DNA from: Luteolibacter sp. LG18
Lineage (GTDB): Bacteria > Verrucomicrobiota > Verrucomicrobiia > Verrucomicrobiales > Akkermansiaceae
Direction: 5' to 3'
Assembly: GCF_036322585.1 (NCBI RefSeq)
Contig: NZ_AP024600.1
Span: forward strand, 4,092,001 to 4,156,000
Length of the DNA stretch: 64,000 bases
In this document: positions 28,644 to 46,800 of the stretch, in pieces
Numbering within the stretch: the stretch's first letter is position 1
Layout of the letters: every line of letters starts with the position of its first letter
Made by a program: the position numbers and the translations under genes
The notes under the pieces: model-generated
Told to the model about the DNA's origin: nothing
Seen by the model: only the letters and a program-made list of their open reading frames with translations
The model's database searches: none

Positions 28644-29702
28644 GTGAACTCTCCTTTCGCGGATTCAGCGGTCAATCTCGCGCTGACCCGTGAGGAGAAG
28701 GTCGATATCTACCGGTTGATGGTGCGGACCCGTCGGCTCGAACAAGCCGCGATCCTGGAATACTCCGCCGGCCAGATGGGCGGGTGGCTCAGTGTGCAGA
28801 TCGGCCAGGAATCGATCGCAGCGGGCGTGCGCTCGCTGTTGGGGCCGGGGGATCATGTGATTGCCGGATATCGCGCCATCGGGCATGCGGTGGCGTCCGG
28901 GATGAGTATGGAGGCCTGTCTGGCGGAGCTTTTTGGAAAAGCCAGCGGTTGCGCGAAAGGAAAAGGGGGAATGATGGGCATGTTCCATCCGGCCGGACGA
29001 TTCTGGGGCGGATATAGCGTGGCGGCGGCCCAGACCCCCTTGGCCGCCGGGCTGGCGTTCGCCCTGAAACTCCGGGACGAGAAAGGAGCCGTTTGTTGCT
29101 TCCTTGGAGATGGCGCGGTCAACCAAGGCTGTTTTCATGAAGCCTTGAACCTCGCCGGTCTTTTCGACCTGCCAGTGATCTACATCATCGAGAACAACGG
29201 GTTTGGCATGTGGACTTCGGTGAAACGGGCCTCCGCCTACCGCGATTGCCTGGCCAAGCGGGCGGAGGGTTATGCCATCGATTGGGATCTCATTCATGGC
29301 GACGATCTATATGAGATCCGCGCGAAGACCCATGTCGCGTTGCAGAGGGTCTATCGGGACGGGCGTCCGACCGTTCTGGAAATCGCCACCTACCGGTTCT
29401 ATGGGCAATCGATTGCCGATGCGAACCAGCGGCTTTACCGCACTGTGGAGGAGATTGAGGAGAGGAAACTCCATCATGACCCCGTGGTGATCTGGCGCGA
29501 CCAGTTGATCTCAGAAGGCGTTTTGGACGAAGAGTTGGCTCAGCGGATTTCAGACGAGGCCAAGGCTGAGTCGGTCGCCGCGCGAGCGTTTGCAAGGGAG
29601 GCGGACGCACCGCGGCTGGAGGACATCACCCGGGACGTCTACTGGGAGTCCGACCACGATACTCCCGCCAGCCGCGTGGGCTGGCATTTCTTCGACGCCT
29701 GA
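28644..29702 (+). CDS. pdhA: thiamine-diphosphate dehydrogenase E1 alpha subunit (pyruvate dehydrogenase type)
   Basis: 352 residues from a GTG at 28644; GGAGG abuts the GTG, too close to be a normal ribosome site, so the start is uncertain, but no in-frame ATG precedes residue 26. The family core is present: YRLMVRTRRLEQ, GQESIAAGVRSLL, AGYRAIGHAVASG (substrate loop), GKGGMMGMFH, the thiamine diphosphate motif GDGAVNQGCFHEALNLAGLF ending in ENN, and YRFYGQSIAD for the phosphorylation-loop region. It decarboxylates a 2-oxoacid, most likely pyruvate, in a complex with E1 beta, E2 and E3. None of these lies next to it; the flanking genes are on the opposite strand and unrelated, so its partners are encoded elsewhere. 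The substrate is not certain. Confidence 0.88.
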   Translation: MNSPFADSAVNLALTREEKVDIYRLMVRTRRLEQAAILEYSAGQMGGWLSVQIGQESIAAGVRSLLGPGDHVIAGYRAIGHAVASGMSMEACLAELFGKASGCAKGKGGMMGMFHPAGRFWGGYSVAAAQTPLAAGLAFALKLRDEKGAVCCFLGDGAVNQGCFHEALNLAGLFDLPVIYIIENNGFGMWTSVKRASAYRDCLAKRAEGYAIDWDLIHGDDLYEIRAKTHVALQRVYRDGRPTVLEIATYRFYGQSIADANQRLYRTVEEIEERKLHHDPVVIWRDQLISEGVLDEELAQRISDEAKAESVAARAFAREADAPRLEDITRDVYWESDHDTPASRVGWHFFDA

Positions 29703-31084: not shown

Positions 31085-32542
31085 GTGAAGCACCCCTCGG
31101 ACGAGACCTTGGACAGCACTGAAGAACAGAAGGGGAAACCGCGCCGCGGTTGCCTGGCCCGGCTGGGTCGTGTGGCGCTGTATGGAATCGGCCTGCTGGC
31201 CCTCATCGTGGCGGTGAGCGTGAAGCCCGTGGACCGCGAACCCTATTTCACGACCGGCTATTACAATGGCACGAAGAAGGGCTTCGATGACACGTCGAAA
31301 GCCTATCAGCCGGTCTCCGGCGCGCTGAAGGCGGGCTTTGGGAAGGCCAAGCTCTCGCCGGAGCTGGGAGCGGCCCAGGACGATCCGGTGCATGGCAAGT
31401 TCAAGTGGCTGCCGATGGCGGGCTACAACCCGCGCGGCGGGAAACCGGCGGAAGGCGTGCACGACGACCTGTGGGCAAAGGCCATCGCCTTCGAGGTGAA
31501 CGGGCACAGGCTAGTCATGCTGCGCCTGGATGCCCTGATCATCCCGCGGGAAGTGTCCGAGGAGGTGGTGAAGGCGCTGGGGGAGAAGCACGGGCTGAAG
31601 CGCGAGGAGATCTATTTTTCCGCCACCCACACCCACAGCGGCATCGGCGGCTGGGGCCCGGATCCGATTTCGAAAGCCTTCGGCGGCGGCTTCAACGCGG
31701 GCATTCCCAAGTGGTTCGCCACCCAACTGGTGGCCGCGGCCGGGGATGCGCTGGGCAACCTGCAACCGGCGTCGCTGGGAAGCGGCCGCTTCCACGAGCC
31801 GGACTACGTCCGCAACCGCTTGGCGAAGGATCGCGGCCGCATCGATGACGAGTTCAGCTACCTGATGGTGAAGCAACAGGGTGGCACCACCGGCGTGATC
31901 GGGGTCTACAACGCCCATGCCACCTGCCTGCCGGGGGAAAACATGCAGCTCAGCGCGGATTATCCCGGCTACTGGGAGCGCCGTATCGAGGAAAAGACCG
32001 GCGGTTTCGCGATGTATCTGGCGGGTGCCGTGGGCAGCCACGGTCCCGAATACGGGTTCCGCGGCTTCGAGGGCGCGCAGAAGATGGGCGAGGCCCTGGC
32101 GGAGGATGTCTTGAAGCGATTGCCAGAGACGAAGCTTTCGCCGGAAACGACGCTGGGCACCTTCGGCCTCGACCTGGAACTCCCGGAATCCCAGGTCCGC
32201 GTGACCGATACCTGGCGGCTGCGGCCGATGGTCACCCGCAGGCTCATCCCGGTGGAGCAGAAGACCTACCTGCAGGTGGCGCGCCTCGGCGATGGCCTGT
32301 GGTTCTCCACGCCCTGCGATTTCAGCGGCGAACTCGCGCTCGACCTGAAGGCCCCGCTGGAACTGCGCGGCTATCATGCCACGGTGACCAGCTTCAACGG
32401 CGACTACATCGGCTACGTGGTGCCGCAGCACTACTTCGACTACACGAAGTACGAGTCCCGTGCGATGTCCTTCTACGGCCCCTATGTCTCGCCCCACTTC
32501 ATGGACTGGATGCGCCGGATGTCCGACGTGGTGGCGAAGTAA
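31085..32542 (+). CDS. neutral/alkaline ceramidase-like hydrolase, membrane-anchored
   Basis: 485 residues from a GTG at 31085. A basic start is followed by one membrane segment at about 30-45 (RVALYGIGLLALIVAVSV), so the catalytic domain lies outside the cytoplasm. Family features are KAGFGKAKLSP at the start of the domain, GVHDDLWAKAIAFEVNGHRLVMLRLD, the zinc-site motif FSATHTHSGIGG, and VYNAHATCLPG. Neutral ceramidases cleave the amide bond of ceramide; many bacterial relatives act on unknown amides, and this one lacks the C-terminal domain of true ceramidases. It is a single gene, the last chromosomal-type gene before the accessory region. Confidence 0.82.
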   Translation: MKHPSDETLDSTEEQKGKPRRGCLARLGRVALYGIGLLALIVAVSVKPVDREPYFTTGYYNGTKKGFDDTSKAYQPVSGALKAGFGKAKLSPELGAAQDDPVHGKFKWLPMAGYNPRGGKPAEGVHDDLWAKAIAFEVNGHRLVMLRLDALIIPREVSEEVVKALGEKHGLKREEIYFSATHTHSGIGGWGPDPISKAFGGGFNAGIPKWFATQLVAAAGDALGNLQPASLGSGRFHEPDYVRNRLAKDRGRIDDEFSYLMVKQQGGTTGVIGVYNAHATCLPGENMQLSADYPGYWERRIEEKTGGFAMYLAGAVGSHGPEYGFRGFEGAQKMGEALAEDVLKRLPETKLSPETTLGTFGLDLELPESQVRVTDTWRLRPMVTRRLIPVEQKTYLQVARLGDGLWFSTPCDFSGELALDLKAPLELRGYHATVTSFNGDYIGYVVPQHYFDYTKYESRAMSFYGPYVSPHFMDWMRRMSDVVAK

Positions 32543-32721
32543 AGGAGTTGAGCCTTCAGGCGAGGAGGGTCTTTAGAGGGAGGCGGAGGCTCTGGAGTTC
32601 CCGTGGCCGCCGGCAACGGCCCTCACCCGATCGGCGACAGCCCATGGAGTGGGTGGACCTTGGGTTGGAGCGTTCGGCATGGTAAGACCGCAAGCCGTCA
32701 CAAGCCGCTGCGTAAGTCTTT

Positions 32722-32931
32722 TCAATGGGCCCGCCGGACATGGCGGTCAAAGTTGTCGGTGCTCACGGGCTGTTTGCAGAGGGGACAGAGGACTTGCTTC
32801 CCGAGCCTGCCGTCAGCGCGCCAGAGGCGGAATTGTGCGAGCAGCCGCTCCTTTTTCATCACGACCGACGGTCCCGGACCGCCGCCATCGGCCATTCTTG
32901 CACTGCCTGCGCTGATATCCCTGTGATCCAT
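32722..32931 (-). pseudogene. truncated copy of the small zinc-finger-like gene (copy A)
   Basis: The last 63 residues match copy B at 33551, from SAGSARMADGGGPGPSVV to the zinc-finger-like end (CPLCKQPVSTDNFDRHVRRAH: C-x2-C, 11 residues, H-x4-H). The first 35 residues of copy B are missing; the homology stops at about 32921, where sequence downstream of the immunity gene begins. An ATG at 32931 could still start a 69-residue product. The DNA is about 90% identical to 33545-33752. Probably a recombination remnant. Confidence 0.55.
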
Positions 32932-32952
32932 TGGTTGGCGCGTGGGTTCATT

Positions 32953-33390
32953 TTAAGTTGTATGTTCGAAGGAAATATTTGCCACCATTTTGTCGCATTC
33001 TTCCGGTTCCTCCCCCTGATCACCCCAGTTCGAGAGGTATGTAATCAGATAAATGCTTGATCCATTGCTGTAATACCAAATTCTGATGTAGTCGCTGCCG
33101 ACGTGATAGCTTTTTTCTGATATCATTATTTTTCCGATTTGTGAAAAATTATTAAATCCTTCAACGGAAAATTTTTGGCAAGCGAATGATTCTCTCATTT
33201 CTATCAGGTCGACTAAAGTGATTTCTGGTTTTTTGCCGGATTTGTAATCTGCTCCGGAGAACTGAAACGCTCCCATGCCTGATTCTTTTGCTAAGGTGAA
33301 AGGCATTTGTGTGTTGGAGTAATCGGTAATGTCTGACCATCCGTTCGATGCTGCTACGCGCAGATTGCCAATTTAGTGTATATTGTTCAT
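32953..33390 (-). pseudogene. decayed orphan immunity gene, allele 2 (nonsense codon 6)
   Basis: This frame has exactly the same length (146 codons with stop) as the immunity gene at 40383 and aligns to it without gaps at roughly 60% identity (DITDYSN, MPFTLAK, GAFQFSGA.YKSG, ITL.DLIEM.ESFA, IRIWY, LITYLS.WG.QG.EP.EC). Codon 6 is TAA where the intact gene has AAA. A downstream ATG at 33306 could make a 117-residue product lacking 28 residues. It is AT-rich compared with its surroundings. Its ATG overlaps the stop of an Rhs tip fragment (ATGA, 33387-33390), just as in the intact pair. Confidence 0.75.
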
Positions 33391-33537
33391 TTCAATTTTC
33401 CGGTTCGCGGATCATACGGCAGCATTTGAGTCGGCTCTTCCCACTTTCTTGCCTGATCGCTCTTGAATGTCTTTCGCCCTCCGGCCGTATCGGGTTTGAA
33501 ATCGCCATGGTTGGCTTCCGGACTCCAGTTGGAACCC
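33387..33537 (-). pseudogene. Rhs C-terminal tip fragment, orphan
   Basis: About 50 codons matching the end of the Rhs protein at 40817, at about 70% identity: GSNWSPE, GDFKPDTAGGRKTFKSDQAR, KWEEPTQMLPYDPRTGKLK. The homology begins abruptly at about 33537, next to sequence belonging to the downstream side of the zinc-finger copy B. It has no start and no Rhs core. With the overlapping immunity allele it is an orphan tip-immunity cassette, a layout known for Rhs and CdiA loci. Confidence 0.75.
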
Positions 33538-33550
33538 GTAAATCGTTTTT

Positions 33551-33847
33551 TCAATGCGTCCGCCGGACATGGCGGTCGAAGTTGTCGGTGCTCACGGGGT
33601 GTTTGCAGATGGGACAGCGAACTTGCTTGCCGAGCTTGCCGTCAGCACGCCAGAGGCGGAATTGTGCGAGCGGCCGCTCCTTTTTCATCACGACCGACGG
33701 TCCCGGGCCGCCGCCATCGGCCATCCTTGCACTGCCCGCGCTGACATCGCTGCGATTCGGTTTCGAGGTGGAACCTTTCCGCGCGCTACCGCCCGGGCGA
33801 CAGGTCCAGCCGCTGGATTGCTCGAAGCGATTGGCTTTTTTTGACAT
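33551..33847 (-). CDS. small C2H2 zinc-finger-like protein (copy B)
   Basis: 98 residues from the ATG at 33847 (MSKKANRFEQSSGWTCRPGG); an in-frame ATG at 33880 would add 11 residues that are also conserved in the second copy of the upstream repeat. The middle is basic and glycine-rich, and the end reads RCPICKHPVSTDNFDRHVRRTH: C-x2-C, 11 residues, H-x4-H, the spacing of a C2H2 zinc finger. I do not recognise the family. Such single fingers are rare in bacteria (Ros/MucR are the known type, with different surroundings). A partial second copy lies at 32722, and the first 23 residues recur at 39952-40047. A DNA- or RNA-binding role is possible, but nothing in the sequence proves it. Confidence 0.55.
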   Translation of the reverse strand: MSKKANRFEQSSGWTCRPGGSARKGSTSKPNRSDVSAGSARMADGGGPGPSVVMKKERPLAQFRLWRADGKLGKQVRCPICKHPVSTDNFDRHVRRTH

Positions 33848-34000
33848 GGGGTGAATGGCGTGCTGGAAATTCGGCGACATCGTTCGAGCGGGCGCATCCA
33901 TACCGGATTCTTTACTTCAAATGGGTTTTACAGGGACAAGCGCCGTGAGGCGGGCAAGGCGTTTGGGTATTGCGTCAGAGTAGGTGGGTTGATCCGGTCC
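33776..34000. repeat. 225-bp direct repeat, copy R1
   Basis: About 93% identical to 39976-40201, same orientation, with one single-base indel. It covers the 5' part of the zinc-finger gene (encoding DA.ARTMS.NFQHAI.PMSKKANRFEQSSGW) and about 150 bp upstream of it. The sequence beyond each copy differs, so it marks recombination boundaries in the toxin-immunity array. Confidence 0.85.
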
Positions 34001-34020
34001 ATGAAGACCGGGTGGCACGT

Positions 34021-34512
34021 TCACTGCGGTTGGTTGCCACTATTTTCAAGCCACGCGCGTGCCTCCTTCCGAATTAGACCACTGCTTAATGCTCCTTCTC
34101 TATATTTTTGGCGAAAGCATTCCACAGAATCGGACAAATTTACAAGCGCAGGGATACATTCCTTTTCGATGATGGCACCCAACAGCCTTGCAGGGGTCGG
34201 TTGTTCGGGTAGCGACAACGTGCCGCCATCAATTACTACCTCTCGCCACTGAGGGAATAATCTCTCCAGCCTGTAATACATATGGGTTCTCTCCACTCTC
34301 TGAGGCGCATCGCCAGCAATCTCTTTTAGCCAAAATCCGACATTTATGAAATATTGATCACTGTGTTCCAGTTTCTGAGTCTCGACTAAAATGATGGCTG
34401 CGCATCCATCGAATCGCAGCTTCTTGGTCGCTTTCTTGAAGCCGTTCGAAACAAATGCGTTTTCAACAATGGATTTGAATTCATGATTGTTCAGCTTTTC
34501 TTTGACTGGTAG
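34021..34512 (-). pseudogene. DUF4304-like immunity gene, 5' end lost
   Basis: 163 open codons (HEFKSIVENAFVSNGFKKATKKL, IILVETQKLEHSDQYFINVGFWL, MYYRLERLFPQWREVV, ending WLENSGNQPQ). The pattern of a G-F-K-K motif followed by a short F-Y/F-I-N strand resembles DUF4304, a family often found as immunity proteins beside Rhs and contact-dependent toxins. There is no start codon: a stop at 34513-34515 closes the frame and the IS5 element begins 15 bp further on. A GTG at 34296 could give only the last 91 residues. The codons are AT-richer than the flanking genes. Confidence 0.6.
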
Positions 34513-34607
34513 TTATCTACCTTGCTAGAGGTGGTTTCAAAAGTCTGAATCGGGGCTTGTACGGCCCGGCCTTGTGTCTATGAACAGAGAGCGTGCTCTA
34601 CGAGTTC

Positions 34608-34726
34608 ATGATCGATGGGGTGTGGGGACGCGTCTCTCCGCTTCTGCCAGACACCAACTCTTTCGGCCGCCCACGTTGCGCCGACCGCGATGTTCTCGAA
34701 GGAATCCTCTGGGTGCTCAAAACAGG
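34608..34726 (+). pseudogene. IS5-type transposase, N-terminal piece
   Basis: MIDGVWGRVSPLLPDTNSFG, then RPRCADRDVLEGILWVLKTG, the characteristic start of IS5/IS427 transposases. The frame is cut at AAAACAGG by IS66 copy 1 and continues as GARWRDLPKHLP at 37239. A GTG at 34593 could be the real start. Confidence 0.8.
34719..34726. repeat. 8-bp target duplication of IS66 copy 1, left
   Basis: AAAACAGG here and again at 37239-37246, directly flanking the element. Eight bases is the normal IS66 target duplication. Confidence 0.9.
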
Positions 34727-34776
34727 GTAAGCGCTCCATGCGGCCTCTCTTGACCGAGGATGCATGAAGCCGCTTT

Positions 34777-36378
34777 TCAGGACGCAGCTTGGATCGGCAC
34801 GAGCACCTCGTTCGTAGGCTGCCAGTTCTTCGGGAGCAAGGCGTCGATTTCCGAGGCCTTCATCCCGGGCAGGCGTTCGAGAACGTCCCGCAGGTAGGCA
34901 TACGGTTCGTGGCCGTGTCGCTTCGCGCTCTCGATGAGCGTGTAGAGGATGGCGCTGCGGTCCCCGGTGTCCTCGCCTCCGACGAACATCCAGTTCTTCT
35001 TGCCCACCGCCGTCGGACGGATCGCGTTCTCGGTGAGGTTGGTGTCGATTTCCGCTTTTCCGTGGCGGACGAAGGTTTCGAGCTTCTGCCACAGCGCGAG
35101 GGTGTAATCGATGGCTCGTCCCAGCGGACTCTTCGGCAACACGGACACGTTGGCACGCAGCCGCTGCAGGTCGAGGCGGAAGCCTTCGAGGATCGGGATG
35201 CTTTGCTCCCGACGTATGGCAGCCCGTTCCTCTGGCCCTGCCCGGGTTTGGCGTAGTTCCTTTTCGATGGCGTAGAGGCCGCCGATGGCTTTGAGCGGTC
35301 CGGCCGCGAGGGTCTGCCCGCTTTGATACGCTTCGTGGAACTTGCGCCGGGCGTGGGCCCAACAGGCGGCCTGCGTGATCTCCGGATGCCGGGCGGCGTA
35401 GGTGTCGTAGGCGCGATACCCGTCGCTCTGGAGGATGCCGCTGAACCCGACGAGCAGATCATTCAGGCAAGCGCTGCCGCGGCTGGTGCGCCACTGGTAG
35501 AGGACATCGCCGCCAGGGCGGTGCAGGGTCCAAAGATAGCCGAGACCGGTTTTGCCGGTGCCGGGGGCGAGGTATTTGACCGGTGTCTCGTCGGCCTGGA
35601 GGTAATCGCCCGCGAGCAGGTCTTCATGGATGTGCCGGTAGAGCGGCTTGAGCCAGAAGGCGGCGAGTTCCGCCCAGCGACACAGCGTGTTGCGCCCGAT
35701 GGCGACGCCATGTCGACGGGCGAGGATCTGTTCCTGACGGTAGAACGGCAAGTGGTCGCAGTATTTCGAGACGAGGGCGTGGGCGATGAGCGCCGGCGTG
35801 GCCGTGAGGCCGTCCTGAAGCCGCGGCGGGAGTTTGGCGGTGACGGGGGCCGCATCGCGGTCGGCGACACGGACGTAGGTGGGCCGGATCAGGCGGCGGA
35901 TGAAGATCCGGCCGGGCTGGTAGTCGAGTTGGTCGCTGCGTTCCTCTCCAATCCTGCGCCAAGCTTCCGGGCAGGCTTTGACCGGCTCGGGCAGCAGCAC
36001 TTCCTCGACAACGGGCAGATGGTCGGGGATGCGCTCGCGGCGCGGCTTGCGATCAGGACGGGCGACGCTTGCTGCGCTGGCCTCCACCACCGGTGCGTCG
36101 CCGAAGGTCGGGGAGGCCGGGGCTTTTCCCGGCGGTTCACCCAGCAGGAGTTCGAGCTGGGCCGGGTCGAGCGCCTCGCTGCTCTTGCCGAAGAGTTTGC
36201 GCAACACCAGGTCAAGCTTCTGGCGCAAAAGGCCGATGAGTTCCTCCTGGTTGCGGAGCTGCTCGCGCTGGCTGTCGATCAGCTCGGCCTGGAGCTGATT
36301 CTGCTCGCGCAACAGCCCGAGGGTCTCCCGCAGGGAGGAGTTTTCCTCAAGTGGCTGTTGTTCGCGCTCGGGTGTCAT
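34777..36378 (-). CDS. tnpC: IS66 transposase TnpC, copy 1
   Basis: 533 residues from the ATG at 36378 (a TTG further upstream in frame is less likely). A coiled-coil leucine-zipper-like N-terminus (about 10-60: LREQNQLQAELIDSQREQLR) is followed by the IS66 zinc-binding and central region, and the DDE catalytic core: D in DYLQADETPVKYL, D in ILQSDGYRAYD, E in TNLTENAIRP, with KNWMFVGGEDTG after it. It is the enzyme that cuts and joins the element ends. It appears intact and could be active. Confidence 0.95.
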   Translation of the reverse strand: MTPEREQQPLEENSSLRETLGLLREQNQLQAELIDSQREQLRNQEELIGLLRQKLDLVLRKLFGKSSEALDPAQLELLLGEPPGKAPASPTFGDAPVVEASAASVARPDRKPRRERIPDHLPVVEEVLLPEPVKACPEAWRRIGEERSDQLDYQPGRIFIRRLIRPTYVRVADRDAAPVTAKLPPRLQDGLTATPALIAHALVSKYCDHLPFYRQEQILARRHGVAIGRNTLCRWAELAAFWLKPLYRHIHEDLLAGDYLQADETPVKYLAPGTGKTGLGYLWTLHRPGGDVLYQWRTSRGSACLNDLLVGFSGILQSDGYRAYDTYAARHPEITQAACWAHARRKFHEAYQSGQTLAAGPLKAIGGLYAIEKELRQTRAGPEERAAIRREQSIPILEGFRLDLQRLRANVSVLPKSPLGRAIDYTLALWQKLETFVRHGKAEIDTNLTENAIRPTAVGKKNWMFVGGEDTGDRSAILYTLIESAKRHGHEPYAYLRDVLERLPGMKASEIDALLPKNWQPTNEVLVPIQAAS

Positions 36379-36429
36379 CGGACGCGCACATGCTACGATG
36401 GATGGAGTAGTCCCCGGCAAGCCGGATGT

Positions 36430-36783
36430 TCACTCCCGCTCATACCACGGACGCATCCGCGCTCCCTTCAGGTCGATACCGTCGGTGAGCATGGCAAGGG
36501 CCTCCGGGGCGAGCTTGAGCTTGCCTCCGCGGCCATCCGACGGCTTCGGCCACGAGAAGGTACCCTTTTCAAGCCGTTTGGCGTGAACCCACAGGCCGGT
36601 GCCATCCCAATGGAGGAGCTTGATGCGATTGCGCGAGCGGTTCGAGAAGACGAAGACCGCTCCGCTGCGCGGGTCCTCGCCGAGCTGGCCTGTGACCAGC
36701 GCGTGGAGGCTGTCGAAGGACTTCCTCATGTCGCACGGCTCCAGCGCCAGGAAGACGCGCAGGCTGCCGGAGAGAGTCAGCAC
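36430..36783 (-). CDS. tnpB: IS66 accessory protein TnpB, copy 1
   Basis: 117 residues from a GTG at 36783, overlapping the tnpA stop by 7 nt. Family motifs are VFLALEPCDMRKSFDSLHALV, GAVFVFSNRSRNRIKLLHWDG and GLWVHAKRLEKGTF. It is needed for transposition of IS66 elements, but its exact role is not settled. The open frame continues upstream through tnpA in another reading, which is not coding. Confidence 0.92.
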   Translation of the reverse strand: MLTLSGSLRVFLALEPCDMRKSFDSLHALVTGQLGEDPRSGAVFVFSNRSRNRIKLLHWDGTGLWVHAKRLEKGTFSWPKPSDGRGGKLKLAPEALAMLTDGIDLKGARMRPWYERE

Positions 36784-37178
36784 GGGCGGGTGGAGGTAAG
36801 ATGGCGGAGCAGCTCCGCCACCCAGGCGAGGTGCTTGCGGTTGGCCACCTCGATGCGGGTGCCGTCGGCAAGCGTGACGCGCAGGGGCTCGGCGACGGCT
36901 GCCTGGACCGAAGGCTCCATGGGCGCGTCCACCACAACTTCGGCAAAGGAGTGTTGAACGGGTTCCGGTTCCTGCTGATCCCGGCGACGCTTCTGCACCC
37001 AGGTGGCGAAGGTCGGATACTTCAAGCCGTGTTGGCGGCAGAAGGCCATCGCCGACTGTCCGCCGCGCTCGAAGGCATCGAGCAGGGCCTCGCGTTGGGA
37101 GGGCTCGATCAGCACGCGGCCGCGGGAATCCGATCGGATCAAACCCGGCCCGCCACCGGGATCTACGATAGAGGTCAT
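36777..37178 (-). CDS. tnpA: IS66 accessory protein TnpA, copy 1
   Basis: 133 residues. A helix-turn-helix of the transposase-8 type at about 25-70 (REALLDAFERGGQSAMAFCRQHGLKYPTFATW), then a basic, variable linker and the end LADGTRIEV...VAELLRHL typical of IS66 TnpA. First gene of the element's operon; its stop overlaps the tnpB start. Residue P54 is S in copy 2. Confidence 0.92.
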   Translation of the reverse strand: MTSIVDPGGGPGLIRSDSRGRVLIEPSQREALLDAFERGGQSAMAFCRQHGLKYPTFATWVQKRRRDQQEPEPVQHSFAEVVVDAPMEPSVQAAVAEPLRVTLADGTRIEVANRKHLAWVAELLRHLTSTRPC

Positions 37179-37238
37179 TCATGCCTATGTATCACCTCTA
37201 TCGTAGGTCCGGGAACGGGGGGCGTGTGGAGCGCTTAC

Positions 37239-37296
37239 AAAACAGGTGCCCGTTGGCGAGATCTTCCCAAGCACCTGCCCAGTGCCTCCACCTGCT
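37239..37296 (+). pseudogene. IS5-type transposase, middle piece (58 bp)
   Basis: Starts with the second AAAACAGG duplicate and reads on in frame as KTGARWRDLPKHLPSASTC, the conserved IS5 sequence following the N-terminal piece. It is cut by IS66 copy 2 after 58 bp. The 8 bases before copy 2 (CACCTGCT) do not recur on its far side. Confidence 0.85.
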
Positions 37297-37346
37297 GTAA
37301 GCGCTCCATGCGGCCTCTCTTGACCGAGGATGCATGAAGCCGCTTT

Positions 37347-38948
37347 TCAGGACGCAGGTTGGATCGGCACGAGCACCTCGTTCGTAGGCTGCCAGTTCTT
37401 CGGGAGCAAGGCGTCGATTTCCGAGGCCTTCATCCCGGGCAGGCGTTCGAGAACGTCCCGCAGGTAGGCATACGGTTCGTGGCCGTGTCGCTTCGCGCTC
37501 TCGATGAGCGTGTAGAGGATGGCGCTGCGGTCCCCGGTGTCCTCGCCTCCGACGAACATCCAGTTCTTCTTGCCCACCGCCGTCGGACGGATCGCGTTCT
37601 CGGTGAGGTTGGTGTCGATTTCCGCTTTTCCGTGGCGGACGAAGGTTTCGAGCTTCTGCCACAGCGCGAGGGTGTAATCGATGGCTCGTCCCAGCGGACT
37701 CTTCGGCAACACGGACACGTTGGCACGCAGCCGCTGCAGGTCGAGGCGGAAGCCTTCGAGGATCGGGATGCTTTGCTCCCGACGTATGGCAGCCCGTTCC
37801 TCTGGCCCTGCCCGGGTTTGGCGTAGTTCCTTTTCGATGGCGTAGAGGCCGCCGATGGCTTTGAGCGGTCCGGCCGCGAGGGTCTGCCCGCTTTGATACG
37901 CTTCGTGGAACTTGCGCCGGGCGTGGGCCCAACAGGCGGCCTGCGTGATCTCCGGATGCCGGGCGGCGTAGGTGTCGTAGGCGCGATACCCGTCGCTCTG
38001 GAGGATGCCGCTGAACCCGACGAGCAGATCATTCAGGCAAGCGCTGCCGCGGCTGGTGCGCCACTGGTAGAGGACATCGCCGCCAGGGCGGTGCAGGGTC
38101 CAAAGATAGCCGAGACCGGTTTTGCCGGTGCCGGGGGCGAGGTATTTGACCGGTGTCTCGTCGGCCTGGAGGTAATCGCCCGCGAGCAGGTCTTCATGGA
38201 TGTGCCGGTAGAGCGGCTTGAGCCAGAAGGCGGCGAGTTCCGCCCAGCGACACAGCGTGTTGCGCCCGATGGCGACGCCATGTCGACGGGCGAGGATCTG
38301 TTCCTGACGGTAGAACGGCAAGTGGTCGCAGTATTTCGAGACGAGGGCGTGGGCGATGAGCGCCGGCGTGGCCGTGAGGCCGTCCTGAAGCCGCGGCGGG
38401 AGTTTGGCGGTGACGGGGGCCGCATCGCGGTCGGCGACACGGACGTAGGTGGGCCGGATCAGGCGGCGGATGAAGATCCGGCCGGGCTGGTAGTCGAGTT
38501 GGTCGCTGCGTTCCTCTCCAATCCTGCGCCAAGCTTCCGGGCAGGCTTTGACCGGCTCGGGCAGCAGCACTTCCTCGACAACGGGCAGATGGTCGGGGAT
38601 GCGCTCGCGGCGCGGCTTGCGATCAGGACGGGCGACGCTTGCTGCGCTGGCCTCCACCACCGGTGCGTCGCCGAAGGTCGGGGAGGCCGGGGCTTTTCCC
38701 GGCGGTTCACCCAGCAGGAGTTCGAGCTGGGCCGGGTCGAGCGCCTCGCTGCTCTTGCCGAAGAGTTTGCGCAACACCAGGTCAAGCTTCTGGCGCAAAA
38801 GGCCGATGAGTTCCTCCTGGTTGCGGAGCTGCTCGCGCTGGCTGTCGATCAGCTCGGCCTGGAGCTGATTCTGCTCGCGCAACAGCCCGAGGGTCTCCCG
38901 CAGGGAGGAGTTTTCCTCAAGTGGCTGTTGTTCGCGCTCGGGTGTCAT
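37347..38948 (-). CDS. tnpC: IS66 transposase TnpC, copy 2
   Basis: Identical to copy 1 over 533 residues except for one change three residues from the end (QPAS here, QAAS in copy 1). The catalytic D-D-E residues are all present. The near-perfect identity points to recent transposition or recombination. Confidence 0.95.
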   Translation of the reverse strand: MTPEREQQPLEENSSLRETLGLLREQNQLQAELIDSQREQLRNQEELIGLLRQKLDLVLRKLFGKSSEALDPAQLELLLGEPPGKAPASPTFGDAPVVEASAASVARPDRKPRRERIPDHLPVVEEVLLPEPVKACPEAWRRIGEERSDQLDYQPGRIFIRRLIRPTYVRVADRDAAPVTAKLPPRLQDGLTATPALIAHALVSKYCDHLPFYRQEQILARRHGVAIGRNTLCRWAELAAFWLKPLYRHIHEDLLAGDYLQADETPVKYLAPGTGKTGLGYLWTLHRPGGDVLYQWRTSRGSACLNDLLVGFSGILQSDGYRAYDTYAARHPEITQAACWAHARRKFHEAYQSGQTLAAGPLKAIGGLYAIEKELRQTRAGPEERAAIRREQSIPILEGFRLDLQRLRANVSVLPKSPLGRAIDYTLALWQKLETFVRHGKAEIDTNLTENAIRPTAVGKKNWMFVGGEDTGDRSAILYTLIESAKRHGHEPYAYLRDVLERLPGMKASEIDALLPKNWQPTNEVLVPIQPAS

Positions 38949-38999
38949 CGGACGCGCACATGCTACGATGGATGGAGTAGTCCCCGGCAAGCCGGATGT

Positions 39000-39353
39000 T
39001 CACTCCCGCTCATACCACGGACGCATCCGCGCTCCCTTCAGGTCGATACCGTCGGTGAGCATGGCAAGGGCCTCCGGGGCGAGCTTGAGCTTGCCTCCGC
39101 GGCCATCCGACGGCTTCGGCCACGAGAAGGTACCCTTTTCAAGCCGTTTGGCGTGAACCCACAGGCCGGTGCCATCCCAATGGAGGAGCTTGATGCGATT
39201 GCGCGAGCGGTTCGAGAAGACGAAGACCGCTCCGCTGCGCGGGTCCTCGCCGAGCTGGCCTGTGACCAGCGCGTGGAGGCTGTCGAAGGACTTCCTCATG
39301 TCGCACGGCTCCAGCGCCAGGAAGACGCGCAGGCTGCCGGAGAGAGTCAGCAC
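39000..39353 (-). CDS. tnpB: IS66 accessory protein TnpB, copy 2
   Basis: 117 residues from a GTG at 39353, identical in sequence to copy 1, with the same 7-nt overlap with tnpA. See copy 1 for motifs. Confidence 0.92.
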   Translation of the reverse strand: MLTLSGSLRVFLALEPCDMRKSFDSLHALVTGQLGEDPRSGAVFVFSNRSRNRIKLLHWDGTGLWVHAKRLEKGTFSWPKPSDGRGGKLKLAPEALAMLTDGIDLKGARMRPWYERE

Positions 39354-39748
39354 GGGCGGGTGGAGGTAAGATGGCGGAGCAGCTCCGCCACCCAGGCGAG
39401 GTGCTTGCGGTTGGCCACCTCGATGCGGGTGCCGTCGGCAAGCGTGACGCGCAGGGGCTCGGCGACGGCTGCCTGGACCGAAGGCTCCATGGGCGCGTCC
39501 ACCACAACTTCGGCAAAGGAGTGTTGAACGGGTTCCGGTTCCTGCTGATCCCGGCGACGCTTCTGCACCCAGGTGGCGAAGGTCGAATACTTCAAGCCGT
39601 GTTGGCGGCAGAAGGCCATCGCCGACTGTCCGCCGCGCTCGAAGGCATCGAGCAGGGCCTCGCGTTGGGAGGGCTCGATCAGCACGCGGCCGCGGGAATC
39701 CGATCGGATCAAACCCGGCCCGCCACCGGGATCTACGATAGAGGTCAT
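39347..39748 (-). CDS. tnpA: IS66 accessory protein TnpA, copy 2
   Basis: 133 residues, one residue different from copy 1 (S for P at position 54, in the helix-turn-helix region LKYSTFATW). Otherwise intact, with its stop overlapping tnpB. Confidence 0.92.
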   Translation of the reverse strand: MTSIVDPGGGPGLIRSDSRGRVLIEPSQREALLDAFERGGQSAMAFCRQHGLKYSTFATWVQKRRRDQQEPEPVQHSFAEVVVDAPMEPSVQAAVAEPLRVTLADGTRIEVANRKHLAWVAELLRHLTSTRPC

Positions 39749-39808
39749 TCATGCCTATGTATCACCTATATCGTAGGTCCGGGAACGGGGGGCGTGTGGA
39801 GCGCTTAC

Positions 39809-39944
39809 CCGCAACCGCATCGAACGCTTTTTCAACAAGCTCAAGCAGTTCAGGCGCATTGCCACACGCTACGACAAGCTTCACTCGACCTTCTGCGCGG
39901 CGGTGATGCTGGTTGCCGCCTATCTCATCGCCAAGAATTCGTAG
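39809..39944 (+). pseudogene. IS5-type transposase, C-terminal piece
   Basis: RNRIERFFNKLKQFRRIATR, then YDKLHSTFCAAVMLVAAYLI and AKNS with a TAG stop: the end of IS5/IS427 transposases, including the catalytic E in the RIERFFN motif. Separated from the middle piece by IS66 copy 2 and missing roughly 130 residues in between. The IS right end lies at its stop codon. Confidence 0.85.
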
Positions 39945-39951
39945 ACACTAC

Positions 39952-40047
39952 CTAGTCCATTTCTGTTGGGTCATGTTTCCGCGCGCCACCGCCCGGGCGA
40001 CAGTTCCAGCCGCTGGATTGCTCGAAGCGATTTGCTTTCTTCGACAT
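39952..40047 (-). pseudogene. 5' remnant of the zinc-finger-like gene in repeat R2
   Basis: ATG at 40047 opens 31 codons, MSKKANRFEQSSGWNCRPGG then GARKHDPTEMD, matching the first 23 residues of copy B at 33847. After R-K the sequences differ. The stop TAG lies at the CTAG target of the IS5 element. A shorter overlapping ATG (39974) starts in another frame and runs into the IS; it may have been the start of the gene whose remainder is at 34512, but the frames do not join cleanly. Confidence 0.4.
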
Positions 40048-40201
40048 GGGGCGGATGGCGTGCTGGAAATTCAGCGACATCGTTCGAGCGGTCGCATCGA
40101 TACCGGATTCTTTACTTCAAATGGGTTCCACAGGGACAAGCGCCACGAGGCGGGCAAGGCGTTTGGGTGTTGCGTCAGAGTAGGTGGGGTTGATCCGGTC
40201 C
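39976..40201. repeat. 226-bp direct repeat, copy R2
   Basis: About 93% identical to R1 (33776-34000). Lies between the immunity gene's downstream region and the IS5 element. R1 and R2 flank the interval that holds the DUF4304 remnant and all insertion sequences. Confidence 0.85.
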
Positions 40202-40382
40202 AACGGCGAAATCAGAAAGCGGGAGACGGGGGCCGGAACGGCGAAATCGGAAGTAGCCGGGCCACCAGAACTTGACAGAAGAGATTTGCCGAAATTCCCG
40301 GGGGTGCGACACCGAGAAGCCGCTTGAATTTCATTTTCCGAAATGGGTTGGCATGGCCAATGCCATTGGTTGGCGCGTGGGG

Positions 40383-40820
40383 TCATTTTCCATAGTCGAA
40401 AGAGACTCCTAGCACCATTCGATTGCATTCATCTGGCTCGTCGCCCTGAGCCCCCCAGTCCGAAAGGTAAGTGATCAAAAAGACGCTAAGGCCATCACTG
40501 CAATACCAAATTCTTACGTAGTCATTTCCGTGATGATAACTTTTTGCGAATATTATTATATTTTCTTCTAATGAAAATTCATCAAATCCGTCATCGAAGG
40601 ATCTCTTGGATGCAAATGATTCATGCATCTCAATTAGATCGAACAATGTGATATTTGGGTTGTTTCCTGATTTATAATTAGCTCCAGAAAACTGAAAAGC
40701 TCCCGTGCCGGATTTTTTTGCCAAAGTAAATGGCATTTCGTTGTTGGAGTAATCCGTGATGTCCATCCATTCATCTAATGCCGATACGTGTAAATTTCCA
40801 AATTTATATATTTTATTCAT
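40383..40820 (-). CDS. probable immunity protein for the Rhs toxin
   Basis: 145 residues from the ATG at 40820, which overlaps the Rhs stop (ATGA, 40817-40820), so the two are translationally coupled. There is no signal peptide; the protein is small, acidic and rich in aromatic residues (DITDYSNNEMPFTLAKK, GAFQFSGANYKSG, DYVRIWYCSD, FLITYLSDWG). I do not recognise the family by name. The position after an Rhs gene, the size, the low GC compared with the Rhs core, and a second allele after a second Rhs tip at 33387 all fit an immunity protein that neutralises the toxin in the producing cell. Confidence 0.75.
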   Translation of the reverse strand: MNKIYKFGNLHVSALDEWMDITDYSNNEMPFTLAKKSGTGAFQFSGANYKSGNNPNITLFDLIEMHESFASKRSFDDGFDEFSLEENIIIFAKSYHHGNDYVRIWYCSDGLSVFLITYLSDWGAQGDEPDECNRMVLGVSFDYGK

Positions 40821-43800
40821 TTTAATTGTCCTGTTTTTGGGTCGTAAGGTAGCATGTGGGTGGGATCCTCCCACTTTTTAGCTTGATCGCTCTTAAATGT
40901 TTTTCGACCTCCGGGTGTATCGGGTTTAAAGTCGCCATACTTTACCTTTGGGCTCCATTGGGAACCGTCATATTCAGAAGGATGGACCCCACCTTTAACC
41001 TCTACATCTTGCCCTGCCTGTCCAGGTTTTTTGAAATCAAATTCAGTGTCAGGATATTTGTCTCGAAGCTGGTCTGGGAGATTGCCAGGCTTGTCCGAAT
41101 GCAAGGACGATCCCCTTGTAGCGGCTTCTCGCGTGTTCTCGTTCTGAGATCCTTTCGCGGCCTTGCCCGATTCCTCTGTGGTGGTCTTAGCTGAAGTTCC
41201 TTCCGGATTTCCCGAGGAACTCGAACCAGTAGGCGGAGGCGACGGATCTCCAGTCTCAAAACCTAATTTAATAAAATTCGATATGGACCATGTACCATGA
41301 GCAGCTTCAAGCACTCCGACTACGGCCACTGGGATAGCAACAGGACTGGCCACCCCAACCGTATAAACCTCTCCAGCGCCAGCCCCCAATACCATGCCTC
41401 CTCCTTGAATTACTTCGTAAGCTCCAAGAGCAGCACCGGCCAAACGTCCCGTATTTCTTCCGAGAGTCCCGGCATCCGTGTGGGTAGAACCACGCATTTC
41501 CTTGCCGGTTAGAGTGACTTCTCCCAGTCCGATCAAACCTTCGAGGCCGAAATTACCAGCAGGAGCCAACACATGATTCCAAACGCCATCGACAACCGGG
41601 CCATTGCTTTCACCTCGCCCCCACAGCCCCTCCGGATCAAACTTCGTCCACGGATTCTGCCTGACGTAGGTGTAGACATTCGGACCGTCCACGAACCCTG
41701 CCGGGTCCCGCGTCAGGAAGATTCCGAACTCCAGGTCGCGGTAGCGGAAGCCTTCGTTCAGGAGGCCGGTCGGGTCTTCGTCCTTGGTGTTGGTTTTCTG
41801 GCGGTCTTGCGTCGTGCCTTGTTCCTGGGTGCGGGTGCCGAAGGCTTCGTAGCTGGATTGCCAAGTGATGGTGCCCGAGGTGTCCGTCTGGCTGACGACG
41901 TCGCCGCGCGAGTTGTAGGCGTTGTAGCTGCGCACGCCGCCATCGCGGATGGTGTAGAGCACGCCGCCGATGCCGCCGCCCCAGTCGCTGCCGCGGATGA
42001 GTTCCACCACCGGCGTGCCGGTGCCGCTGGTGTATTCCTGCACCGACAGGCCGCCGGAGAAGGAGAGCTCGGTGCTGGCTCCGCCGGCCGAGCTTTCATC
42101 GCGGCCGACGCGGCGGCTACGGTGGTCGTAGGCATAGGCGAATCCGCCCTTGGCGCTGTCCGTCAGTGAAACGAGGCGGTTGTCGTAATCGTAACCGTAG
42201 CTCTGGACGGTGGAGGTCCCGACCTTTTTCTCCGAGCGGTTGCCGTTGGCGTCGTAGAGGAAGGTGGTGACCGCCGAGCCCTTGGTGACGCTCTTGAGCT
42301 GGTTGCTGTTGTAGCCGTCCGACGTGGTGCCGTAGACGGAGGTCCAGGTGCCGGGATCGGTGCCACCGGTGACGACCTTTTGCGTGCGGTTGTTCGCGGC
42401 ATCGTAGGCGTAACCGGTGGTGACGGTGCCACCGCCGGTGGTGGCCGCGACCTCGCTGGTGAGGCGGTAGGCGCGGTCGTAGCTGTTGGTGACGGTGCGA
42501 CCGCTGATCGAGCCGTAGAACTCGACGATCTTGAGCACGTTGCCGACCCCGTCATGGCTGGTCGTCCAACCGCCCGCGGGCTGCGAGTAATCGAAGCGTG
42601 AGACCAACCCACCGGCGGCGGTGCGGGTGTCCTCGCCAAGCTTGCGGTTGAGCGCGTCGTAGGTGGACCGGTTCTCGGTGCCGTTGGGCAGGACCTTGCG
42701 GGTGACGTTCCCGGCGAGGTCGTAGAAATAGCCGGTGACGCTGCCGGAGGTGGCGGCGGCGTTCGCCTTCTCGGTGCAGGTCAGCAGGCGGTTGAGCTTG
42801 TCATAGGTGCTGGCGAGGAAGCGTCCGCTGGAGGCGTAGGTGGTGGTGCGGCGGTTGCCGGACTTGTCGTAGGTGTGGACGTGGGTCGCACCGGCGGAGG
42901 TTTCCTCGGTCAGGCGGTTGAGCTTGTCGAACTCCTGCGAAACGCCCCGCAGGGCCTTGCGGGCGGTGGTCTCATTCGGATAGGACACCTCCAAGAGATT
43001 CCCCGCCAGGTCATAGCCGAGGTGGCGGTTGTCCGTGGAGGCCCCGCTGTAGAGCACGTTCTCCAGGCGGTGGAGCGCGTCGTATTGGAAGGTGACGGTC
43101 TGATTCTTCGGATCGGTGCGGGTGAGCTGCACCAAGCCATCGAAGGTGGCCTGCTCGATCTTCTGCACGCCGGTGCCCTCGTCCCACAGGGTGCGGGTCT
43201 TCCGGCCCAGGCCATCGAAGCGGAAGCCGGTGGAATGGCCCACACCGTCCGTGACCTTCACCAGATGGCCGGCGTCGTCATAGGCATTGCGGATGGTGAT
43301 GTCGCCGGTGGCGGGGTTCGCGGGATCGGCGGAAGGAGCGCCGGTGTCCGGATTGGTGGCGGTGGTGGCGAGACGGTTGAGCGTGTCGTAGGTGTTCCGC
43401 GTGTGGTTGCCATTGCCATCGGTCACGTCCAGCGCGTTGCCCGCGGCATCATAGGTGGTGCGGGTGGCGATGTCGTTCGTACCGGGGCTGGCGGGATTGG
43501 TGGAGGGATTGCCGCTGACCGGATTGACGAGCACGGTGGTGACGCGGTTCGCGCGGTCACGGAAAGTGCGGGTGACGTGGCTCCGCGCATCCGTGGAGGC
43601 GGTGACATTGCCGACGCCGTCGTAGGCCGTCTTGATCTCGGGCGTCTGGAACGGAGTGGCGACCGGTTGTCCGCCGACAATCTCGGTGGCGGTGACGGAG
43701 GGCAGGCGCTCCAGCGTCTTGCGGTTGCGGGCGTCGTACTCGAACTCGTGGCGATAGCCGAGCGGATCGAGCGACACCGTCACGTTGCCGCTCTTGTCAT

Positions 43801-46800
43801 ATGCGGTCTGACTTCGCGGCGAGCCCACGAGCGGATCGGTGGGGTTCGAGCGGTTCACCACCCCGGTGACGGGATCCGGCTGCCAGGCGGCGACAGCGCG
43901 ACCGGCTCCATCGTAATCGGTTTCCGATTCCCGGTTCAGCGGATCGATGGTCTTCCACGTCAGGCCGGTGCTGGAATAGACCGTTTGTTTGGTCGTGGCG
44001 AGAGCGGTGCCATAGGCATCCGTGACACTGGTGACGCGTTGGAGCCCGTCCTTCACGGTGAGGGTCACCTTGCCACGGTCATCGGTGGTGGTAGAATTGA
44101 GCGCTTCCTTGCCTCCGCTGAGCGCCCCATAGGCGGTGACGCCGACGGCCACCGAGCCCGTTTCATAGACGGTTTCCGTGCGCAGCGGGCGGTAGAGGGC
44201 GTCGTAGCTGGCGTAGGTCCACAGGTCCACGGTGCCTGCCGCGGTGAGTACCGCGCCGTGCTGGATGGCCACGGTGGGCTTGAAGCCGGAGGAATTGAAG
44301 GCGCTGCCGCCGGGGTTTCCCTTCACGGTGCCGCCTTCCGGCATTGCGAGGCCGGTGTCCGTGTAGCGGAATTCGGTGTGGGTCTTGCTGGTCGAGGCGG
44401 CGGCCTGCGAGGTGTAGGTGGCCAGTGGATTGCCGGCTGAGTCCGCCGCATCGGCCTCCGCGGTGGTGAAACCGGCGAAGACATGCACCGGCCGCTGGAT
44501 GGCATCGTAGAACGTGCGGGTCACGATCCCGCGCGGATCGGTCTTCCGGATGGGATTGCCCACGGCATCGTAGGCGACCCGCGAGACAAGATCGCTGCCG
44601 GTGGCGCTGCCCTTCGTTTCCTCAGTGACCAGACCCCGGTAATCCAAAGTGGGCAGGCCCGCGCCATCCATGTCCCGGATGGTGGTGATGCGGCGGTTGA
44701 GCGCATCGTAGTGGTGGATGAGATGGCGTCCCTCCTCGTCGATCTCCGCGGCCTTGCTGCCGTTTTCGTTGTACCAGATTCGCTTGATCGCGGCGGCCGT
44801 GCCGGTGCTGGTGCCCGCCTCCGGATAGGTGACGTCGGTGAGGCGGTTGAGCTTGTCGTAGGTGAAGCGGGTGCGCTTGCCGCGGGGGTCGAGCGACCAG
44901 GTCTTGTTGTTGTTGAAATCGTAGCCGTTTTCCGTGACGAGGGAGAGTCCGCGCGGATCGGTGATTTCCTTCCAGATGCGGCCGTTCGCATCCGGGAGCG
45001 TGGCGGTTTCCAAGGCCGTCTCCCAGGCCTGTCCGGTCACATTGGAAAATGCCAACCGCGACGAACCGGTCTGGAATCCCTGGAAGCGCGCGTTGCCGTA
45101 GTCGTAACGCTCCTGCTGGAGCAACTGGCTGCCGTTCTGCTGGACCGCCTTCGTGCGCCTGCGGCCGAGACCGTCCACGGTGAACGCGCTCGTCGTGTGA
45201 TACGGATCATCGGTGCCGTCCATGATCCGGTGGGAATTGCTATACGTGTAGGTCTCGCGGCGGCCGAGGGCATCGACCTTCGCGGTCGGATCGGCCCATT
45301 TCGTCATCGTGGCCGAGGTAGCGGCGAGACCCACGGGCATTCCGCCGTAGCCGTTGTCGAACTCCCAGGTGGTGACATTGCCGGAGAAGTCCGTTGCCTT
45401 CTTCAGGGCTAGGCCCGCGGCGGGTTCGTATTCATAGGTCTCCGTGCCGAGGAAACCGCTGGAACCCGGCGCGCCGCCGTGGTGGATCTTCGAGGTGAGG
45501 TAGTAGATCATCCACTGGGCGCTCACGGATTTCTCCGAGGCATCCACGTTCACCACCTCCGCGAGCAGGTTGGTGAATTCGTAAACGGTCTTGTTGCCGA
45601 GAGCATCGGTCACAGTGGTGACCGGAAGCTGCGGGAAGGTCACCGTGGAGCCGAAACGGGTCTGCCCTTGTGACGCGAAGGTCGTGGTGCCTGCACCTCC
45701 CGGCCGCACCACGGAGGTGATGCGGCGTGGCTGGCCGTACATGGTTTTCCACTCCCCAAGGTCCGGGTCGTTCCCCTTGCCAAGCTCCCCGAGCACGTAA
45801 TTTTTGACATTGGTCGGCAGACGGTCCAGATCGACCGCCGCACGGGTGCCGTTCAGGCTGGAATCCCAGTATTGCTTCGATTGATCGACGGCGTAGTTGA
45901 AGGTGTGGGTGTTGCTCCGCTTGTCGGTGACCGACTTGAGATTGGTGTGGAAGTGCCGGGTCAACCGCGGATTCGCGGGGTCGCTGTTGTCCTCCTCCAG
46001 TTCGTAGACTGTGTCGTAGGTGTAGTGGACGTCCGTCCCGTCCGCGTACCACACGCTCGTCAGTTTCGAGGCGGGGGCGATGCTGCTTCCGCTCAAGACA
46101 TACTCGCTGATGTTGGTCGTGTAGCCGAATTCGGTTTTGTTGCCGCGGCTGTCGGTGATCGAGGTGACGCGACGGGAGTCGGAACTGCGGCCGATGACCA
46201 GGAATTGTCCCTCGCGGTCCGGCGAACTGATCTGGCGCGGGATGAGCGCAACTTCATTCGGCACGCCGGGCCCGTTGTCGTAATCGTAGCGGAGGCGCAC
46301 ACCGAAGCGGTCCCGCGCTTCGGAAAGCCGCCAGTAGGTGTGGCGGCGAATCGTGGTCGATCCGTCCCGGCGATCGGAGGAATACATGAACCACGCCTTG
46401 CTCGGCGTGAACGTCAGGGTGCTGCCGAACTTTTTCTGAAGCGTGAAGTTGTTCCCGGCCCGGGTCAGGGTGTTCAGATAGGTCTTCTTGTCCACGCGGG
46501 CGGAGGGCCACGGGAAGAAGCTGCCGAAATCGATGGTCCCGAAGCGCTGGGAGCGGCCCGATTCATCCACCACGTTCACGGTGACCGGTTCATGTGAATC
46601 CTCACCGATGGTCTCCACCACCTCGACGTAGGAGCAGAGGTTTGAAGACCAACCAACCCCAAACGGCAGATCAAGGCGCTCGTGTGGCCTCAGGCCGGAA
46701 CGGCTGGAAAAGCCGGTCTCTTCCGTGCTGGCCGTGACCTGGAGGGCCAGATCTGAAGCCCCGAGGGGCGTGTAGTGGTAGCTGGTGTCGTGATGCAGCC

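Follow-up and report, generated by a model that had tools for sequence, protein, structure and literature searches.

The minus-strand cassette at 32953-33542 of the window (the whole stretch of DNA that was analysed, 64,000 nucleotides) is very likely a degenerate orphan Rhs toxin-tip/immunity cassette derived from the turnover of Rhs cassettes. It is the last of three modules behind the core of a single Rhs gene, namely the active tip and immunity A, the DUF4304 remnant C and the pair of tip B and immunity B. The cassette looks like a wreck of warhead swapping rather than a working spare, and with the first half of tip B missing and a stop codon in immunity B, the pair is very probably non-functional. 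Taken alone, the feature adds a further decayed orphan Rhs cassette to a known type, and part of its interest lies in tip and immunity A, which are without a Pfam or NCBIfam family. All or part of one 257-nt element, termed U here, comes after each of the three modules, and the occurrence of U behind unlike immunity genes that follow Rhs cores, in 7 of the 21 U-bearing genomes, makes a mechanism of cassette exchange testable by breakpoints in sister strains.

Read 5' to 3' on the minus strand, the Rhs gene with tip A and immunity A is followed by a U element and spacer D3, then by an IS5-like element broken by two IS66 copies, remnant C and the 3' part of a U element, and finally by a complete zinc-finger-like gene, tip B with immunity B, ~24 nt of U and spacer D4:

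40817..48928, minus strand: main Rhs gene, 2703 aa, with TSP3 and RHS repeats, the Rhs-associated core and a variable tip formed by the last ~95 codons
40817..41104, minus strand: tip A, presumed toxin domain, ~95 aa, relatives of which end other Rhs proteins
40383..40820, minus strand: immunity gene A, 145 aa, with an ATGA overlap with tip A and a predicted Mog1/PsbP-like fold
40129..40385, minus strand: U element, full copy directly after immunity A (model R1, E 2.5e-50; one of the copies used to build R1)
39976..40188, minus strand: spacer D3, the U element end plus the N-terminal half of the zinc-finger-like gene (93% to 33776-33988)
34570..39955, no strand assigned: IS5-like element (ends by eye), broken by IS66 copies at 34727-37238 and 37297-39808
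34021..34503, minus strand: orphan immunity-like remnant C, DUF4304 family (Pfam E 8.3e-8, 32.7 bits, cut-off 23.2)
33929..34006, minus strand: U element, 3' part, after remnant C (R1 positions 176-254, E 1.8e-11)
33551..33901, minus strand: small zinc-finger-like gene, complete copy (spacers D3' and D4'), with relatives in other genomes of the genus
33387..33542, minus strand: orphan tip B, the last 52 codons of a tip including the stop, without core (73% amino acid identity, E 9.6e-24)
32953..33390, minus strand: orphan immunity B, 145 codons with TAA at codon 6 (62% identity to immunity A, E 9.8e-58)
32928..32952, minus strand: U element, first ~24 nt, after immunity B (R1 positions 3-24 at 32928-32949, E 0.015)
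32716..32927, minus strand: spacer D4, the C-terminal half of the zinc-finger-like gene (92% to 33545-33756)
G000:C1 5340410-5340658, 5337637-5337881, 3886390-3886627 and 3384200-3384310: further U copies in the own genome

An Rhs shell bears a variable C-terminal toxin tip, and an overlapping immunity gene neutralises this tip in the producer. The main Rhs gene has the RHS repeats and the Rhs-associated core of Rhs polymorphic toxins (Pfam RHS_repeat E 5.7e-36 and TSP3_bac E 5.1e-35; NCBIfam Rhs_assc_core E 4.8e-13), and its tip is of the variable kind, since related tips end other Rhs or Rhs-like proteins. The GC content is 0.38 in immunity A and 0.40 in immunity B, and 0.63 in the window and the Rhs core.

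Genomes with the tip numbered 2 of 387 in the phylum and 3 of 386 in the order, with the own genome counted in both. A Verrucomicrobiaceae MAG (L010 and L013, which are one contig) encodes an Rhs protein ending in a related tip, and a distant homologue of immunity A lies behind this tip (26% over 117 residues, E 2e-6 in a single comparison), suggesting that the tip-immunity pairing is old. In L016, a PT-HINT domain (E 3.4e-6; 27.8 bits, cut-off 27.7) precedes the tip, and the gene that follows the tip shows, by eye, no evident relation to immunity A, which suggests that the pairing is not fixed. L010/L013 and L016 are Rhs carriers of the tip in another family of the same order, and the Verrucomicrobiaceae MAG among them suggests that the source organism belongs to the Verrucomicrobiota. 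In the Planctomycetota, matches were obtained in 2 of 392 genomes, one being a MAG (L012) in which the tip (65% identity) ends an Rhs-like protein whose core match is weak, and the other being weak in itself, interrupted by two stops (E 0.009) and not counted. A more ordinary orphan was seen as well: a second, partial Rhs core with a different C-terminal end lies further down the Verrucomicrobiaceae contig (L013 5699-6802). Another orphan Rhs end, at L042 6682-7716, begins by eye like a signal peptide and carries an Ntox50 tip (E 4.2e-18); it comes after an Rhs gene that has an ankyrin-repeat gene behind it.

Immunity A had no match in the 72 other genomes of the genus, and two short peptide patterns of it, searched in one genome per species for 84,980 species, returned 73 stretches of which none was confirmed. 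The tip had no match in phages or plasmids, and its 65 pattern stretches in viral contigs were likewise not confirmed. The sequence-only reading had proposed to look for a full-length allele of B in related genomes; no intact pair of tip B and immunity B was found there. By sequence, the tip matched nothing in Pfam, NCBIfam or the PDB, while immunity A had no Pfam or NCBIfam match and only two chance-like rows in the PDB (best E 0.097).

Structure prediction gave a model of the tip that was too poor for use (pLDDT 51, pTM 0.34) and a fair one of immunity A (pLDDT 70, pTM 0.70, from 3 sequences), the latter with a predicted Mog1/PsbP-like fold. In structural alignment, the top row for the immunity A model was BT_1490 (Z 13.8), and the rows for PsbP, Mog1, Tsi3 and TplEi were mostly at Z 10.0-11.3, including TplEi (Z 11.2, rmsd 4.4, 133 aligned residues) and Tsi3 (Z 10.7, rmsd 3.1, 108 aligned residues). 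Foldseek returned three matches at E <= 1e-3 with BT_1490 first; a fold missing from these structural matches is not excluded thereby.

The homology of pair B to pair A is evident in both genes. Searching the own genome with immunity A (tblastn) returned immunity A itself and immunity B, the latter with 62% identity over residues 1-143 (E 9.8e-58) and one TAA inside, and the two frames align without gaps over 145 codons, as the sequence-only reading had described at about 60%. The ATGA overlap it had pointed out is present in both pairs, at 33390-33387 in pair B. It had also recognised 33387-33537 as resembling the last 50 Rhs codons at about 70%; this holds, with the extent now 33387-33542, 52 codons and 73-75% amino acid identity (E 9.6e-24). 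At the DNA level, tips A and B are 75% identical (117/156), and the immunity genes differ at 129 of 438 bases with the stop codon or 128 of 435 without it (70.5% identity). Third codon positions hold 68 of these 128 differences (p 3e-6 against one third) and 27 of 38 in the tips (50 codons compared). Such a preponderance indicates that both lineages were protein-coding for much of their separate history.

Silent-site divergence bears on how the two cassettes came to share a locus. Between immunity A and B, dN is 0.24 and dS 1.6 (NG86) or 2.6 (YN00), with dN/dS at 0.09-0.15, and by these estimates the silent sites are near or at saturation; for the tips, dN is 0.14-0.19 and dS is unstable (3.4 or 0.69). 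In DNA, the cassettes differ by 25-29%, and the spacers flanking them within the locus are 92-93% identical, i.e. 7-8.5% different. Cassettes A and B therefore probably diverged elsewhere and met here afterwards, and the proposals that pair B is too divergent for a recent duplication and that it represents, downstream of the main Rhs gene, a second allele in one toxin-immunity family both gain support. A chance resemblance is virtually inconceivable at the E-values given above, with nothing found in its favour. The origin of pair B by local duplication of pair A with fast divergence afterwards would account for the shared family, the shared overlap and the start of U (~24 nt) behind both pairs, and is nevertheless very unlikely, since silent sites so diverged contrast with young spacers and a different immunity-like family (DUF4304) sits in the same array.

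Pair B is a cassette in which both genes look damaged. It lies downstream of a full-length rhs gene on the same strand, as orphan modules do, and matches tip A only at residues 44-95 of 95, so that the second half of a tip is present in place of a complete tip starting from the core boundary. Within the absent first 43 residues falls DVEVKGGVHPSEY of tip A, a segment whose DV, one G, HPS and Y recur in L012 and L013. The DNA upstream from 33540 had no match anywhere in the Rhs gene, either by homology search or by ungapped comparison. The tip B frame has neither ATG nor GTG as a start; read from a TTG at 33554, it would run for 55 aa. As the N-terminal half and the core junction are both gone, reloading of tip B as a complete tip is impossible. 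Immunity B, for its part, is not intact: the assembly has TAA at codon 6, with the remaining 139 codons open, as had been noted from the sequence; the TAA might reflect a mistake in the assembly. A frame drifting neutrally would escape any additional stop with a probability of 0.62, 0.31 and 0.05 at 0.02, 0.05 and 0.15 substitutions per site, respectively. Of the earlier suggestion of a recent break or a restart at 33306, the recent break fits these odds, and the restart is possible on paper as the next ATG, GTG or TTG is an ATG at this position, opening a product of 117 aa. Direct inspection of the bases ahead of 33306 revealed no purine-rich, ribosome-binding-like run. In the immunity A model, strands lie at residues 3-7, 10-14 and 18-20, in the part lost by restart, and strands 1-3 would be missing from the 117-aa product should immunity B adopt the fold of this model.

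The two points just given count against a still-working orphan immunity B, translated from the restart or through a stop that is an assembly error and guarding against kin with the old tip B, which is unlikely overall. The other 139 codons being open agrees with such a role, and so does the low dN/dS over codons 29-145 (0.24/1.52); as the low immunity dN/dS sums both lineages, continued selection on immunity B is possible. There are parallels too, since E. coli EC93 makes an orphan CdiI protein (PMC3150448) and Vibrio arrays keep old immunity genes (PMC5361080). The setting speaks against it: tip B is truncated, two IS66 copies and the IS5-like element separate immunity B from cassette A, and a sigma-70-like promoter was matched 0 times in 32700-34100 (mean of 0.9 in shuffles), in a consensus scan that is weak and says little.

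Remnant C lies between modules A and B; neither it nor the repeated spacers were mentioned in the earlier account of this DNA. The remnant C frame has its first ATG, GTG or TTG only at 34296; no tip was seen before the remnant, and it had no NCBIfam match. DUF4304 is presumably a family of immunity proteins. The element at 34570..39955 we take, by eye, to be IS5-like from the features of such transposases. The two IS66 copies inside it differ at 3 of 2512 bases, and the first (34727-37238; DDE_Tnp_IS66 Pfam E 8.8e-84) has the 8-bp repeat AAAACAGG on both sides.

The zinc-finger-like gene of the spacers shows CPxC and later HxxxH by eye, and all its zinc-finger Pfam matches were below the cut-off, with no Pfam family above it. 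In the genus, 7 of 73 genomes, with the own one counted, have matches to it, of which four are weak, and one relative lies at L030 9496-9861; DNA searches of the own genome (E 1e-3) found no dispersed copies of the spacers elsewhere. D3 and D4 are complementary, with D3 ending at the equivalent of 33776 and D4 beginning at that of 33756, so that 19 bp are missing (ungapped boundaries). This complementarity suggests that one copy of the zinc-finger-like gene may have been split by a C-B block inserting behind cassette A; the spacer halves favour such an insertion into the spacer gene, which may thus have occurred rather than a displacement of B by A. Neighbouring plus-strand genes in the window encode a ceramidase-like protein (31085-32542, PF04734, E 3.9e-18) and a dehydrogenase E1 component (28644-29702, PF00676, E 8.6e-64).

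The U element was followed through the genus with R1, a model of 257 positions built from the sequences of six U copies. Inside the locus, 32928-32954 matches the sequence at the end of immunity A over 27 nt (96%, E 3.5e-5 in the own genome), and a 30-mer from the end junction of immunity A and B occurs in 6 of the 73 genomes of the genus, own included, compared with 0 of 73 for the reversed pattern. In total, 48 U matches in 21 of the 73 genomes were retrieved by R1 under stricter filters that lose weak matches, and three with less than 1.5 kb of upstream flank were dropped before counting, leaving 45. With a home-made Rhs core profile of five segments, a same-strand Rhs core was found within 2.5 kb upstream of 18 of the 45 (17 distinct cores) and an opposite-strand core upstream of none, while 27 had no core; the single opposite-strand core stood at 2.9 kb, past the limit. 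Core and U lie 1.07-1.48 kb apart in 16 of these 18 cases (0.35 and 2.16 kb in the other two), roughly what a tip and an immunity gene take up together. Among matches of at least 60 bits, 12 of 20 have a core upstream, always on the same strand and at 1.14-1.48 kb, as against 6 of 25 lower-scoring matches. Downstream of U, same-strand Rhs cores were seen in 6 of 38 cases.

Both null expectations were drawn from loci chosen for holding U. Random placements in these loci had a core upstream in 1389 of 16424 cases (p 9e-9 for 18/45), and gene ends in 37 of 234, with the window left out (p 8e-5); the latter comparison is conservative, as the gene ends include those of the immunity genes themselves. 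Without the six model-building copies, the count is 13 of 39, in 7 of the 21 U-bearing genomes (p 1e-5 against random placement, 0.005 against gene ends), and its excess over gene ends is modest. The genes just ahead of U are unlike one another: SUKH-3 in G040, where U follows each of two modules, the DUF4304 and Mog1/PsbP-like families in the present locus, and different genes elsewhere, two of them without a Pfam family. In a second locus of the own genome (L076, G000:C1:5332000-5350000), an Rhs fragment and the next gene lie between two U copies, adjoined by a phage-type integrase (Pfam E 2.8e-7). Outside the genus, U had a best E of 0.047 (L010, L012, L013 and L016).

Several other natures were tried for U and its cassettes. 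A structured RNA was rejected, as the covariation term was unfavourable (+2.25) in a consensus energy of -21.15. An Rfam search of 32500-41200 gave nothing over the gathering score and one match below it (24.6 against 37.5 bits), inside immunity A on the other strand. The integrase of the second own locus had no other relative in the 44 sequences searched, and tRNAs occur in 3 of 43 loci, two of them more than 3.5 kb from U and none in the window; being so rare, neither link is general for the cassettes.

With regard to its role, U might be a genus-wide 3' boundary of Rhs cassettes that, together with the core as 5' arm, delimits two-armed exchangeable modules, a proposal we advance tentatively and consider somewhat improbable. 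We give about even chances to U being a general mobile or regulatory intergenic repeat with no part in exchange, gathered by Rhs loci as repeat-rich islands; this concerns the mechanism only. The 27 of 45 matches without an Rhs core upstream, some after housekeeping-looking genes (by eye), point to such a repeat, and so does a full copy in L031 that follows a tRNA-Ser and precedes a relative of the zinc-finger-like gene; U is thus enriched behind Rhs cassettes and not confined there. The weaker association of low-scoring matches and the cores downstream of U are of the same tenor, whereas the narrow spacing of 12 of the 20 strongest matches behind same-strand cores and the Rhs fragment bracketed by two U copies are more in keeping with a cassette boundary. 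Were U such a boundary, swaps by ordinary double crossover would leave U-punctuated arrays of old cassettes.

Turnover of Rhs cassettes would proceed as follows. The feature is, or once was, a working part of a polymorphic toxin; new tip-immunity cassettes would come in by horizontal transfer, and older ones would end up downstream and decay there, tip B presumably losing its first half and immunity B gaining its stop codon on the way. The U element would be a possible second (3') homology arm beside the Rhs core, as a recurrent 3' element would permit normal double crossover. Among the titles and abstract openings listed in literature searches, none named a recurrent 3' element of this kind behind Rhs cassettes.

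Known polymorphic toxins offer several parallels. As in the toxins with Rhs or PT-HINT carriers treated in the accessible part of Zhang et al. 2012 (PMC3482391), the same tip is found on several carriers, and different from those toxins, the tip here is without a Pfam or NCBIfam match; the name DUF4304 is absent from that part of the article. The predicted fold of immunity A resembles the solved immunity proteins Tsi3 and TplEi (Z 10.7 and 11.2), the sequence identity in the structural alignment being 7-9%.

Downstream orphan Rhs and CdiA cassettes have already been described by Poole et al. 2011 (PMC3150448), where exchange with orphan modules is one model. The sequence-only reading had regarded the present pair as stored downstream like such cassettes; the position agrees, whereas storage does not, with half of the tip lost and the immunity gene interrupted. 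Like the orphan rhs-CT/rhsI and cdiA-CT/cdiI modules of that study, the locus has a tip fragment with an immunity gene downstream of a full-length gene, and transposable elements in the array. In contrast to the rhs-CT/rhsI modules as given there, the cut in the tip falls inside the toxin domain instead of at the core boundary motif, a stop interrupts the immunity frame and the modules have a 3' element in common.

The orphan immunity arrays of Vibrio cholerae are similar in that the active pair comes first and is followed by older, unlike immunity genes, as described by Kirchberger et al. 2017 (PMC5361080), where the arrays form through sequential displacement. The model set out there for the V. 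cholerae T6SS clusters combines a conserved homologous anchor at the 5' end with an illegitimate, non-homologous 3' end. Different from these arrays, the present one has a recurrent 3' element as a candidate second anchor, and if U does serve in this way, two-armed exchange would replace the one-anchor model with its illegitimate 3' end in this group.
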